Origin: Herpetosiphon geysericola
GTDB taxonomy: Bacteria > Chloroflexota > Chloroflexia > Chloroflexales > Herpetosiphonaceae
Direction of reading: 5' to 3'
NCBI RefSeq assembly: GCF_001306135.1
Contig: NZ_LGKP01000022.1
Location: forward strand, 62,001-126,000
Length of the DNA stretch: 64,000 bases
The stretch's first letter is position 1. Each line of letters opens with the position of its first letter. Positions 32,916-38,220 of the stretch are shown here, one piece after another. The translations under genes and the position numbers were made by a program. Under the pieces are notes generated by a model, which saw nothing but the letters and a program-made list of their open reading frames with translations, did not search any database and was not told where the DNA came from.

Positions 32916-33581
32916 TTAATCAAATTGGCGTGAAAGCGCTTTAGCTCCTTGGCTCATCCATGGCTTAACCGGCGTGAATTTGAGCACCTCCAGCGGCGCA
33001 GGAATATAGCCGCCACACAGGCGGTTGATAATCGCTTCGGCGATAATCCGGGTTGGAAATTGCTTGGCATCCGATGGACGTTGCCACAGCACGCCTAAAG
33101 TTTGCTCGCACAAAAAGGCGGCGAATGTATTCAAAACCAACAATTGATAATGTGGATCAGGACCATAACGACTTGGCCGCTTGAACCATGTTTCAAAGTC
33201 AGCATAATCGGTTTCGAGGCCACCAAAGCGTTGCAGGCAAATTTCAGTAATTCCAGCCTTCGGGCGCAGCCATGCAGGCGTGCTCGTGTTGGCAAACCAT
33301 TGCTCAAGGCTTGGTACTATGCCCGCAAAATCCTCTTGAATATGTTGGATGGCGATTAACTCGGTTGGCACGGTTTGTTGATCGGAAGGTCGTTGCCAAA
33401 CCTCGCCAAAGATTGCTAGACATAATTCGATGCCATAGGGTTGATGCAACAACATACGATGGCGTGGATCGATACAATAGCTTTTACTACTATCAAACCA
33501 ATGTTCAATTGGCCAATAATCTTGCCAAATGCCGCCCCAGCGCTGGGCCGCACTGCGAGCGTGATAATAGGGATGCGACAT
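32916..33581 (-). CDS. Protein with two DUF6915-like units
   Basis: 221 residues. The start 'MSHPYYHARSAAQRWGGIWQ' and 'IEHWFDSSKSYCIDPRHRML' resemble DUF6915, a family of unknown function. The same pattern returns in the second half: 'FGGLETDYADFETWFKRPSR' and 'PDPHYQLLVLNTFAAFLCEQ', and the phrase VLWQRPSD repeats EVWQRPSD, so the gene looks like an internal duplication. ATG 33581 shares a base with the stop of the preceding gene (TGATG), so it is translated with the tandem family. The ninth codon of a longer frame also exists, but coupling supports this start. Confidence 0.78.
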   Translation of the reverse strand: MSHPYYHARSAAQRWGGIWQDYWPIEHWFDSSKSYCIDPRHRMLLHQPYGIELCLAIFGEVWQRPSDQQTVPTELIAIQHIQEDFAGIVPSLEQWFANTSTPAWLRPKAGITEICLQRFGGLETDYADFETWFKRPSRYGPDPHYQLLVLNTFAAFLCEQTLGVLWQRPSDAKQFPTRIIAEAIINRLCGGYIPAPLEVLKFTPVKPWMSQGAKALSRQFD

Positions 33582-34714
33582 CAATAGCCTCGCTGTTCGC
33601 CATGCCAAAAGGCCACATCAACTCCTTGGTGTTGATCCTCAGGCAGATACATCACATACAATTCTGGGTTTGCAGGGTGGACTGTTACCGGATAGAGCAA
33701 AGAGTTACTTTCGTAGGCTTGCTCTTCTGCATAATCGTATTCATTCCAGATCATGCCCACATAATTGACCATGGCATTGGCAATATCAAGCTGATACACT
33801 CCATGGGGTTGGTATTCTGGCAATGCTCCTGCCCAATCAAAATTCATGAAATCCCATACCAAGCGCTCTAATTCTTGGTTGATAAAGCCTTCACTGAGTG
33901 GTTTGCTGGTTCCATCGGATAAACGATAGAGACGATAGCCAACTTCGGCCTCGTCGTGATTGTTGTAAATTGCCCATTCGAGGCTGATAATTTGTTCTGC
34001 TTGCAACAGGGCGAGTAAGCGTTCGGCAGGGTGCGCCAAATCGATAAGTTTGTCGCTATCAAGCGGATCATCACTGACCAGCGGTTGGTCAATGTTGAGC
34101 GGGGGATTGAGCAAGCCACAGCAAATTTCGTACAAATCCCAATATATTGCCCAATAATCCCAAGGTTCAAATCGTTCGGCGCGGATTTCGCGCGCACAGC
34201 GCCGCGCTATTTCTAAGGCCAGTTGCTGGTTATTGGTTAAGCGCGCTTCAGCAATTTGGGCGATCCAGCCATTGATTGACCATTCTTGCAGGTTTGAATC
34301 TTGTTGATAGAGCCGGATACATTCACGATCGTTACCAAGCCAAAAGTGGGCTTCGAAGATTTGCACTTGATATCTAACATAATCCGAATTGTCGGCCTTG
34401 GTTGCTTTGTATAATAATTGCAGATAGAGCCTTTGCATTGTGGCCTGATCGCCTGCTAGCCGATACCAATTGATCCGCTCTGCTTCATAATCGATCATTG
34501 CTGTTTTATACTCGATGCTTGGCGCTTGTTTCTGCGCTGCTTGGCGCAAATAGTCAGCGGCTTGCGGATCACGCAAATAATACAGACAGCGGGCTAACTC
34601 GGGGAGTTGATAGAACGAACCCTGCGGTTGAGTTTCGTTATTTTTGTAAATTTGTTGCATCATTTCGTGCAAGCGTTGTTGATTCAAGCGCAGGGTCGGG
34701 TATTCTAAGTCCAT
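33581..34714 (-). CDS. Tandem paralogue family, member 4 (unknown function)
   Basis: 377 residues, soluble, acidic. The N-terminal half is helical and TPR-like, with 'ELARCLYYLRDPQAADYLRQ' and 'YRLAGDQATMQRLYLQLLYK'. The C-terminal half is strand-rich: 'LEWAIYNNHDEAEVGYRLYR', 'ELERLVWDFMNFDWAG', and an ending with 'LYVMYLPEDQ' and 'FWHGEQRGY'. It is 34-50% alike by eye to the neighbours at 34732 and 36557. GGAGA precedes ATG 34714, 17 bases after the stop of member 3. I do not recognise the family. The longer upstream frame lies inside member 3. Confidence 0.8.
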   Translation of the reverse strand: MDLEYPTLRLNQQRLHEMMQQIYKNNETQPQGSFYQLPELARCLYYLRDPQAADYLRQAAQKQAPSIEYKTAMIDYEAERINWYRLAGDQATMQRLYLQLLYKATKADNSDYVRYQVQIFEAHFWLGNDRECIRLYQQDSNLQEWSINGWIAQIAEARLTNNQQLALEIARRCAREIRAERFEPWDYWAIYWDLYEICCGLLNPPLNIDQPLVSDDPLDSDKLIDLAHPAERLLALLQAEQIISLEWAIYNNHDEAEVGYRLYRLSDGTSKPLSEGFINQELERLVWDFMNFDWAGALPEYQPHGVYQLDIANAMVNYVGMIWNEYDYAEEQAYESNSLLYPVTVHPANPELYVMYLPEDQHQGVDVAFWHGEQRGY

Positions 34715-34731
34715 CGCTTCTCCGCTCACAG

Positions 34732-35817
34732 CTAATAACTTCGTTGCTCGCCATTCCAGCGAGCCAAATCGAGCATCCGCTCTTCTGGATTGGGCAACAA
34801 TACAACCAACAAATCGGGATTCAGCGCATGTTCGCTGGTGGGATAGGTTGGTAAATCGCCCAACCATTCGCTCTTGCTCTCAACCATTGCTGCATATTCG
34901 TATTGGCTCCAAAGCTGGCCTACACAATGAACCTTGGCGCTTGCTACCTCCAGCCGATAGAGGCCATAGGGCTGCCAACCAGGCAATGACCAATCGAAAT
35001 TCGTCATATCCCATACCAAGCGCTCTAATTCTTGGTTGGCGATGCCTTGATTAAACAGCCGGGTTGTGCCATCGGCTAAAAGGTAGCAACAGTAGCCTTC
35101 CTCGGCCTCGTCGTTATTGTTGTAGATTGACCATTCGAGCGCCACAATCTGGTGGGCTTGCAACAGCTCAATTAATCGCTGAGCCGGATTTGGGGTAATT
35201 TCAAGCACGGGGCCATCGATGCTGAGTGGTGGGTTGAGCAACTGGCAACTAAGCTCATACAAATCCCACAGATTCAGTGGCAGATTGCTCCATGGCTCGA
35301 TTCGCTCCTCGCGAATTGTCGTTGCCAGCCGTTGGGCAACAGTCAAGGCTTGCAGGGAATTGCGCTTGAGTCGGGCTTCGGCCAATTGCGTCATCATGCC
35401 TGCCAATTGAATCGCTTGCAAGGCAGCCTCATGGTGGTAGTACTCAATCAATTTGTGATCATCGCCCAGCCAAAATAAGGCTTGAAAAAAGGCCCATCGA
35501 TAGGTTGCTTGTTGCCATTGGTTGGCGCTAGCAGGCTTGGCTGGCAAGTTACCAAAGCATGTGTGTAGCACTGCCCAATCGCCCGCCATGCGATAGAAAT
35601 TGAGGCTAGCAAACTGCTGATTGATCGTAGTTGATTGTTGTTGGGCTGCTTGGTGCAAATAGCTCGCTGCCTGCGGATCACGCAAATAGTAGGCACAGCG
35701 TGCGAGTTTCACCCATTCATTGGCTCGTAGCGAGTCAGGTTCTTTGGCTTGCAGCTGCCGCATGGTGTTGAGCAAACTTTGCTGATTCAATCGTAGGGTC
35801 GGATATGCTAATTGCAT
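34732..35817 (-). CDS. Tandem paralogue family, member 3 (unknown function)
   Basis: 361 residues. Same layout as member 4: 'QLAYPTLRLNQQSLLNTMRQ' at the start, 'LARCAYYLRDPQAASYLHQA', 'LSIDGPVLEITPNPAQRLIE', 'LEWSIYNNNDEAEEGYCCYL' and an ending 'LDLARWNGEQRSY'. TGGAGA lies 5 bases before ATG 35817, and the junction sequence TTATTAGCTGTGAG with its 17-base spacing is the same as between members 3 and 4. The segment around 35131-35230 is almost identical in DNA to 36241-36330 of the decayed copy, showing recent duplication. Confidence 0.8.
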   Translation of the reverse strand: MQLAYPTLRLNQQSLLNTMRQLQAKEPDSLRANEWVKLARCAYYLRDPQAASYLHQAAQQQSTTINQQFASLNFYRMAGDWAVLHTCFGNLPAKPASANQWQQATYRWAFFQALFWLGDDHKLIEYYHHEAALQAIQLAGMMTQLAEARLKRNSLQALTVAQRLATTIREERIEPWSNLPLNLWDLYELSCQLLNPPLSIDGPVLEITPNPAQRLIELLQAHQIVALEWSIYNNNDEAEEGYCCYLLADGTTRLFNQGIANQELERLVWDMTNFDWSLPGWQPYGLYRLEVASAKVHCVGQLWSQYEYAAMVESKSEWLGDLPTYPTSEHALNPDLLVVLLPNPEERMLDLARWNGEQRSY

Positions 35818-35834
35818 AGGTTCTCCACTCACAG

Positions 35835-36538
35835 CTAATAACTCCGCTTTGTACCATTCCAATGCGCAAGATCGACCGCTTGGCGCAGTTCTGCGGGCAA
35901 ATACATCACATACAAATCTTGGTTAACAGGGTGTTGGATGACGGGATGCGGGATTGCACTTGGCTCATATTCAGCAAAAGCCCGTAAATCTTCATACTCG
36001 TAGCTGCTCCAAAGCATGCCTAAATAGCTGATTTGGGCGGTTTGCACATCAAGCCGATAAACTCCATATGGCTGTTGATCGGGAAACTCGTTCGACCAAT
36101 CCTCATTGACTACATCCCATACCAAGCGCTCTAATTCGTGGTTGGCGAGGCCTTGATGAAACGGTGCGCTGCTGCCATCGGCAAAGTGATAATTACAAAA
36201 ACCCTCGTCGGCCTCATCGTTGTTGTTGTAGATTGACCATTCGATCGCGACAATCTGGTGGGCTTGCAACAGCTCAATTAATCGCTGAGCGGGATTTGGG
36301 CTAATTTCAAGCACGGGGCCATCGATGCTCATAGGTTGTTTGCTCCCAATGACTTACATTGCTGGGCTTAGTTGGCAGCGTTTGAAAGCATGTTCGCCTT
36401 TCGCAAATAGTACGCGCTTCGGGCAAGGCCAACGAGCTTATATGCTGCAAGTTGATGCGTGATTTTCGCTGAGATTTGCTGAAAATGATTGCCTAAACTT
36501 TGTTGGTTTAAGCGCAGAGTGGGATATTCAGGATTCAT
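35835..36538 (-). pseudogene. Tandem paralogue family, member 2, decayed by deletions
   Basis: The ribosome site GAGGAG and start ATG 36538 are intact, and the first residues read MNPEYPTLRLNQQSLGNHF, as in the paralogues. The frame runs through LARSAYYLRKAN and stops at a TAA near 36379. In another frame the same DNA then reads TCFQTLPTKPSNVSHWEQTT, matching the middle of member 3 (TCFGNLPAKPASANQWQQAT). It jumps at 36332 to SIDGPVLEISPNPAQRLIEL, in a third frame, and continues intact to 35835. Two internal deletions with frame changes explain this. A protein of 165 residues could still start at ATG 36332. Confidence 0.85.
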
Positions 36539-36556
36539 CAAACTCCTCTCGATTAA

Positions 36557-37645
36557 TTAGAGAAAACGATACTCATCACGTTGGGTTTGGGCCCATTCTT
36601 CAAGCAGCACCTTGGGCCGGTGTTGATACGGAAAGTAGTAGTAGGCATAGACATCGGGATTGTCGGGATGCGGAGTTGCTTCAAAATCTAGTTCACCCCA
36701 GGTCTGAATCTCCACATAATCGTAGTAGCTCCACAGATCGCCAACATGATAGACAGCCGCCTCTGCTACCTCAAGCCGATAAATTCCATAGACAGAAAGA
36801 TGTTGCGGTGGCATAACAGCTGGCCAATTATCATTGAATAAATCCCAAACAAGCCTTTCCAGTTCAGGATTATCAATGCCTTGGGCAAAACGCCGACGAC
36901 TGCCATCAGCCAAGATATAGCTACAAAACCCTTCGTCAGTCTGATCTTGGTTGTTGTAGATTGACCATTCGAGCGCAATAATCTGTTGTTCGTTAAGCAA
37001 TGCCAGCAAACGTAAATCGGGGTCATCCGAGGAGGTTATGATTGGGCCATCGATTGCTAAGGGCGGATCAAGTAATTGACAGGCAATTTCGTACAAATCC
37101 CAGTGATTAAATGCTAAATCGCTCCATGGCTCAAGCCGTTCAGCACGAATTGTGCTGGCCAAACCTTGTGCGATAGCCAAAGCCTGTTGCGAATTGCCAG
37201 TTAGCCGTGCTTCCGCCAATTGGCTGATAAGCTCAGCGAGCGGTATATTCTGCACCGCATCCTGCTGTTGATAGGCGTTGCTACATTCGCGATCCTTGCC
37301 GAGCCAAAACAAGGCTTCGAACATTTCCCGCTGATAGCGATCATGCTGGGTGTGCTCAGCAGTTGCTGCTTGCTGAAGCAATTGTTGATAGATCGTTTGC
37401 ATGGTCACCCGATCGCCAGCCATCCGATAGTGATTTACACTGCTAGCATGCAATACATTAGTTGTTTCTTGTTCTGCTGCTTTTTGCAAATAGTACGGCG
37501 CTTTGGGGTCGCGCAGAAAGTAGGCGATGCGGGCCAACTCTCCATAACGTGATTTGACCGATTGGTGTTTGGCTTGCTGACGAATCGCTGCAAATCGATT
37601 GCGTAAACTAATCGCATCAATGCGCAGAGTGGGATATTCAGGCAT
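36557..37645 (-). CDS. Tandem paralogue family, member 1 (unknown function)
   Basis: 362 residues, first of the array in transcription order. It begins MPEYPTLRIDAISLRNRF and has the shared motifs 'ELARIAYFLRDPKAPYYLQK', 'YRMAGDRVTMQTIYQQLLQQ', 'LDPPLAIDGPIITSSDDPDL', 'LEWSIYNNQDQTDEGFCSYI' and 'ELERLVWDLFNDNWPAVMP'. The C-terminus differs most from the others ('VLLEEWAQTQRDEYRFL'). The ribosome site is weak. A perfect TTGACA lies upstream on this strand at 37695-37700, close to the divergent lipoprotein promoter. Confidence 0.8.
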   Translation of the reverse strand: MPEYPTLRIDAISLRNRFAAIRQQAKHQSVKSRYGELARIAYFLRDPKAPYYLQKAAEQETTNVLHASSVNHYRMAGDRVTMQTIYQQLLQQAATAEHTQHDRYQREMFEALFWLGKDRECSNAYQQQDAVQNIPLAELISQLAEARLTGNSQQALAIAQGLASTIRAERLEPWSDLAFNHWDLYEIACQLLDPPLAIDGPIITSSDDPDLRLLALLNEQQIIALEWSIYNNQDQTDEGFCSYILADGSRRRFAQGIDNPELERLVWDLFNDNWPAVMPPQHLSVYGIYRLEVAEAAVYHVGDLWSYYDYVEIQTWGELDFEATPHPDNPDVYAYYYFPYQHRPKVLLEEWAQTQRDEYRFL

Positions 37646-37758: not shown

Positions 37759-38220
37759 ATGCAACGAATTTTAGTTATTTTCGGCTGTTGGCTCTTGTTA
37801 AGTGCGTGTGGTAGTAGCCAGCCAACCGAAGTGCTGGCAAATGCGACCCATCAAACTGCCCAACAAGCACCAGAGAGCGTGGTGCAATTGTTGGGCGAGT
37901 TGAGTATTACTCAGCGCTATGCTGAAATTGAGCCATTGTATATGCCCAAAGCACGGACTGGCTTTACGATCAATAATCAACAATCTTTTGCTGCTGGCTA
38001 TGGCGGGCCATTTCGAGTGCATGGGCCAATTTATTCAATGACTCATGAAGCACCTCGCTATATACAGGCCGATTATGCCGCGATCGAAGTTCACTATTTT
38101 TTTGATCTTAGTAACACTGTCTCGCAGACGAGCCAGTTGCTGCTGCAAAAAATCGATGGGCTTTGGTATATTTGCCAGCGGATTGAGCGTGATCAGCCGA
38201 TTCCTGGGCGTTGTGAGTAG
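37759..38220 (+). CDS. Small lipoprotein, function unknown
   Basis: 153 residues. MQRILVIFGCWLLLSACG is a lipoprotein signal with lipobox LSAC (Cys17). The mature part has 'ESVVQLLGELSITQRYAEIE' and 'YAAIEVHYFFDLSNTVSQTS' and resembles an NTF2-like or DUF4878-like ligand-binding fold, but I cannot name it. GGGAGGA lies 8 bases before the ATG. A strong terminator follows at once. Confidence 0.8.
   Translation: MQRILVIFGCWLLLSACGSSQPTEVLANATHQTAQQAPESVVQLLGELSITQRYAEIEPLYMPKARTGFTINNQQSFAAGYGGPFRVHGPIYSMTHEAPRYIQADYAAIEVHYFFDLSNTVSQTSQLLLQKIDGLWYICQRIERDQPIPGRCE

Follow-up and report, generated by a model that had tools for sequence, protein, structure and literature searches.

A toxin-less tandem array of two-domain proteins in Herpetosiphon geysericola, a probable polyimmunity locus directed against nuclease toxins

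Homogeneous polyimmunity loci consist of same-strand tandem paralogues with one dominant immunity type (Zhang et al. 2012, PMC3482391), and loci of four or more genes were recorded from proteobacteria, bacteroidetes, firmicutes and actinobacteria only (PMC3482391). Strings of esaG and tipC are T7SS immunity genes of firmicutes, EsaD being a nuclease toxin (Garrett et al. 2022, PMC9484751). The all-α immunity proteins Imm49 and Imm-PA2201/PoNi are paired with Tox-REase toxins (PMC3482391), and the toxin Tde5 is met by two structurally distinct immunity proteins, Tdi5a and Tdi5b (PMC13392607). The array from H. geysericola described here resembles the homogeneous polyimmunity loci in its tandem same-strand paralogues, in having no toxin gene, and in a copy number that differs among relatives; it departs from them in that its proteins fall outside the named Imm families, its host belongs to the Chloroflexota, and the array ends in a DUF6915 gene.

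The window, i.e. the whole stretch of 64,000 nucleotides analysed, lies on contig C23 of a Chloroflexia genome of 6.1 Mb in 46 contigs (G000), and all array features lie on its minus strand. Copies c1 (36557..37645, 362 aa), c3 (34732..35817, 361 aa) and c4 (33581..34714, 377 aa) each encode an intact two-domain putative immunity protein, with a mutual identity of 46–48% over the full length; the starts of c3 and c4 were taken downstream of the mechanical ORF starts, which lie too far upstream. The broken copy c2 (36541-35835 overall) comprises an N-terminal remnant of ≈ 48 aa (36392..36541), after which the frame is lost, and an intact ORF of 165 aa with an ATG start which encodes the C-domain only (35835..36332). 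A double DUF6915 gene (DUF6915x2, 32916..33581, 221 aa) follows last, its start overlapping the c4 stop as TGATG. The spacer between c2 and c3 (35818..35834) measures 17 nt and places GGAG ahead of the c3 ATG, and the same junction sequence recurs in the 17 nt spacer between c3 and c4 (34715..34731); common to both is TTATTAGCTGTGAG[T/C]GGAGAA, which includes the Shine-Dalgarno-like GGAG. The constant spacing of 17–18 bases given in the preliminary description, with its shared junction sequence, corresponds to 17 nt ahead of c3 and c4, and ahead of c2 the distance is 15 or 18 nt, set by the choice of ATG. The overall layout reported there, three intact copies and one broken copy of a two-domain protein followed by a duplicated DUF6915-like gene, could be confirmed by a check of ORFs and coordinates and by homology. 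The copies are homologous at the protein level (E = 6e-94, 5e-83 and 9e-43) and a related genome has four full syntenic copies, so that the array is not a product of chance; its genes are tandem paralogues of one family, with the single orientation and the short spacing (15–18 nt, plus the TGATG overlap) of a polyimmunity locus, and the putative immunity role of the family is read from the toxin adjacency discussed below.

The DUF6915x2 protein belongs to Pfam PF21866 (E = 2.2e-42; 143.8 bits against a curated cut-off of 27), which it matches in two stretches, so that its duplicated nature is as first described; its putative translational coupling to c4 would run through the TGATG overlap. It is 85–97% identical over the six genomes of the genus, is always the last gene of the locus, and occurs among 158 genomes of the class only at the array locus. 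DUF6915 itself is widespread, with 111 phage records and 218 plasmid records in mixed contexts; its neighbours on phages and plasmids are likewise mixed and include no toxin-immunity loci. A full-length two-domain DUF6915 relative on a conjugative plasmid adjoins a PcfJ-domain gene (L138). In a search of viral contigs, neither the array protein nor the DUF6915x2 gene had a relative.

The two-domain family had not been recognised from the sequence, and c1, c3 and c4 have indeed no match in Pfam, NCBIfam, PADLOC or PHROGs. In c3, residues ≈ 1–195 form a TPR-like N-domain and residues ≈ 205–360 a predicted α/β C-domain. The N-domain resembles helical domains of the TPR type: it scores below the cut-offs of the curated Pfam TPR entries, its profile and predicted fold resemble TPR, a sequence search of solved structures matched it to TPR only, and the structural neighbours of its model are TPR folds, including Rap proteins. 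Common to the members of the N-domain family is a C-terminal W-D-x-Y motif situated outside the TPR-like part. The search of solved structures gave no match for the array C-domain or for the toxin domain considered below, and Foldseek returned nothing at E < 0.001 for the models of either the array protein or the toxin domain. An all-α immunity domain and the proposed pairing with a REase-fold toxin would link the array protein to Imm49 and PoNi, from which it is set apart by its additional α/β C-domain and by lacking Pfam or hhalign similarity to them (one protein compared for each). Imm49 (PF15575) was rejected as a family assignment with no Pfam match at E ≤ 10 and an hhalign probability of 0.1 for the A3 profile against one Imm49 protein; for PoNi/Imm-PA2201 (PF08929) there was again no Pfam match, and hhalign gave a probability of 0.1 with one representative only. 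The best explanation is that the array represents a new, unlisted immunity family.

Relatives were sought in 158 Chloroflexia genomes, and whole-genome searches yielded N-domain homologues that do not belong to the array family. At five loci (L045, L031, L030, L032 and L133) a single-gene N-domain homologue lies directly 3′ of a large secreted-type protein, or of what survives of one in a fragmented contig. This toxin-type protein carries a conserved C-terminal domain and, where complete, TSP3 repeats and a VWA domain. The profile of the toxin C-domain (A4) retrieves exactly five genes in the 158 genomes, all five of them followed by an N-domain homologue at distances of 27, 42, 158, 209 and 759 bp; the gap of 158 bp belongs to L045, which is found in the same genus as the array, and L031 carries three N-domain genes. 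The four toxin loci outside the genus sit in draft metagenome-type assemblies, and a contig scan with the toxin profile returned known loci only, with two organisms named, Chloroflexi bacterium AL-N1 and Chloroflexales MAG.66. The homology between the array N-domain and the toxin-linked genes does not depend on the final alignment: the whole-genome search gave E = 7.6e-11, and hhalign started from array-only sequences gave 2.5e-12, 1e-13 and 1.6e-8. As the array proteins are only ≈ 20–28% identical to the toxin-adjacent homologues, the array's own target may differ from theirs. Class-wide N-domain matches at E 1e-5 to 1e-2 were left out of the count as probably generic TPR, and a match in G049 (0.0012), located within a metallo-hydrolase-like ORF, was dismissed as chance.

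For the relatives' toxin C-domain a nuclease function was indicated by its motif and its predicted fold. Alignment revealed an invariant P-D and E-x-K (PD...ExK), and the model (pLDDT 67, pTM 0.70) has an α-β-β-β-α-β core, so that the PD-(D/E)XK motif is placed on the corresponding core. The VIA matches of this model are mostly PD-(D/E)XK nucleases, led by FokI (Z 7.3, 3.4 Å over 127 residues) and including the CdiA-CT toxin 4zqu (Z 7.1, 3.0 Å over 116), MspJI, EndoMS and Hjc; all Z-scores are below 8, and a middling Z alone is weak. Because the VIA matches are consistent with one another and accompany the PD...ExK motif, the domain is likely a REase-fold nuclease. In another Chloroflexota genome, a REase-like toxin candidate precedes a clear Imm49 (E 1.6e-47; L154 206-2018).

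In L031 and L032 the array-type C-domain forms a gene of its own right behind the N-domain gene, with 4-bp overlaps (hhalign 2.2e-6). This arrangement, in which the two domains are encoded separately and side by side, suggests that N- and C-domains act on the same toxin, as has been shown with other proteins for Tde5 (PMC13392607). Compared by description, two immunity genes next to one nuclease toxin are a feature of both systems; Tde5 is a ββα-metal DNase and not of the REase fold, and Tdi5a and Tdi5b are not fused.

N-domain genes are also found away from the REase-fold-type toxins. One adjoins Imm10 (PF15588, E = 1.8e-20) in G046 and in G044, where it is accompanied by an NB-ARC/TPR protein in an order that is swapped between the two genomes (L067 9274-12041, L131 7696-10606). 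A second, orphan N-domain locus has one gene in G000 (C1:338153-338833; L129 8145-8825), whereas its counterpart at this chromosomal position in G044 has three tandem genes (L068 10616-13032); G046 contains another orphan N-domain gene (L130). Fusions of the N-domain to pentapeptide repeats were seen at the toxin locus L030 (4103-4902) and in L132 (6840-8447). Pentapeptide proteins can mimic DNA, a property that would suit nuclease inhibition.

The statement that no toxin gene lies in the window was borne out, and by profile search none of the REase-fold type was detected in the whole of G000; of the other five genus members, four were likewise negative. The preliminary idea of immunity proteins is strengthened by the relatives, in which a toxin gene directly precedes a single-gene N-domain homologue at all five loci and an N-domain gene borders Imm10, whereas for the array itself, which is toxin-less, such adjacency does not hold.

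The locus is present in all six genomes of the genus in an identical chromosomal context, flanked by genes for a flavoprotein oxidoreductase and LysR at one end and for an arylsulfotransferase-like protein and a hybrid histidine kinase at the other. The number of full copies ranges from 1 to 4, the variation among relatives that had been proposed as a check: G043, G045 and G047 have one copy each, G044 has one with an in-frame TAG together with a deleted c2, G000 (H. geysericola) has three and the deleted c2, and G046 has four, all intact. Homologues in the form of a single-copy conserved housekeeping gene, which would have spoken against an immunity role, were encountered by half: in three genomes the gene is indeed syntenic and present once, yet it has no known housekeeping function. 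A small predicted lipoprotein gene (37759-38220, plus strand), divergent from c1, occurs at the array only in the multi-copy or c2-bearing genomes (G000, G044 and G046) and is absent from the corresponding place in the three single-copy genomes.

Between G000 and G046 the orthologues of c1, c3 and c4 are 86%, 87% and 94% identical, as against ≈ 47% for the paralogues, and trees join orthologues before paralogues; judged from these sequences, the duplications predate the species split. The same holds for the damage to c2, which consists of two internal deletions rather than one break; since their positions coincide between G000 and G044 (L026), they are old and ancestral. The remaining C-domain ORF is 91.5% identical to its G044 counterpart with a dN/dS of 0.14 (Fisher p = 7e-10), and as this value was maintained after the deletions, the ORF is probably still translated and useful. 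The picture of ongoing duplication and decay therefore has to be modified: copy number does vary, but the duplications are old, recent duplication is unsupported, and the C-domain ORF of the decayed copy is under purifying selection. The near-identity of c2 and c3, first put at about 90 bases, could be located at the start of the C-domain, where 111 of 120 bases are equal, with agreement falling to 40–90% per 30 bases thereafter. Moreover, the N-domain of the single copy in G043 groups with G045/G047 (support 0.78) and its C-domain with a G046/G044 copy (support 0.95). This tree conflict, together with the c2/c3 match, shows that C-domains have been exchanged between copies. Along these lines the array is comparable to the esaG and tipC strings, i.e. 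diverged tandem immunity paralogues that recombine via conserved blocks and are gained and lost between strains; it is distinguished from them by unrelated proteins and secretion route (judged from the descriptions), by a slower turnover, between species, and by the two-domain make-up of its proteins.

Taken together, the array is probably a homogeneous polyimmunity locus that lacks its toxin and whose genes form a new immunity family, directed against REase-fold nuclease toxins. The incoming toxin would be a secreted protein that ends in a PD-(D/E)XK nuclease domain and is delivered by neighbouring cells; c1, c3, c4 and probably the c2 C-domain would be co-produced as cytoplasmic antidotes, presumably from a polycistronic message. 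In analogy to immunity proteins already known, the most likely binding partner of c1, c3 and c4 is the nuclease domain of neighbours' toxins. The TPR-like N-domain and the α/β C-domain may each recognise part of the toxin, a putative division of labour, and binding would block the nuclease before DNA is cut, thereby protecting the cell. Diverged copies with exchangeable C-domains would widen the range of toxin variants from kin and competitors that are covered. Tentatively, and with rather less confidence than the polyimmunity assignment, this can be formulated as a fused dual immunity, in which two unrelated antidote domains, which the relatives still encode by distinct, coupled genes downstream of the nuclease toxin, became fused and multiplied in the genus, with the C-domain swapped between copies and also acting alone (c2), to give a mix-and-match set of antidotes against REase-fold toxins.

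The main rival, unlikely in our assessment, is that a gene of immunity descent was domesticated for a stable cell function together with DUF6915x2, e.g. in the control of a cellular nuclease or mobile-element function, the extra copies being tolerated duplicates. It would account for a locus that occupies the same place in six of six genomes, always followed by DUF6915x2, is single-copy in three of them and has no cognate toxin in five of the six. This retention, steadier than would be expected for a disposable orphan immunity gene, also counts against the polyimmunity reading, as does the missing toxin. Purifying selection on the copies fits it as well (dN/dS 0.16–0.34 overall; 0.23–0.34 for c1, c3 and c4, with 0.23 for c1), yet these values are ≈ 3–5 times those of DUF6915x2 (0.04–0.09) and LysR (0.01–0.08), and an arms race explains this excess better, as it does the copy number of 1 to 4 and the exchange of C-domains.

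An array of TPR adaptors or regulators, e.g. in peptide sensing or protein interaction, unrelated to toxins and placed beside them only through generic TPR similarity, was already disfavoured and is judged very improbable. The TPR-fold neighbours such as Rap, and the match of the N-domain profile to TPR proteins of designed consensus sequence (CTPR3 at E 4e-8, one with 16 repeats at 7e-21), would be expected from it; against the array profile, however, a generic TPR protein reaches an hhalign value of 0.086 as compared to 1e-8 to 1e-13 for the toxin-linked genes, the W-D-x-Y motif extends across the family beyond the TPR-like part, and the array C-domain co-occurs at toxin loci too. Least probable of all, and scarcely tenable, is a dying pseudogene array left behind after toxin loss: c2 with its two deletions and the in-frame TAG of the G044 copy are the kind of damage it predicts, but it is already contradicted for the intact c1, c3 and c4 by their selective constraint, and the C-domain ORF of c2 has remained constrained since its deletions.

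Under the polyimmunity reading, the poorly studied Chloroflexota would gain an immunity family not listed so far, together with the type of nuclease toxin paired with it, with L045 as a concrete toxin accompanied by candidate antidotes. A polyimmunity locus in this phylum would be of some note, given that extended loci were unreported in it as of 2012 (PMC3482391). If the reading is true, the two-domain make-up, the exchange of C-domains and the presence of a C-domain-only gene raise the question of which domain sets specificity.
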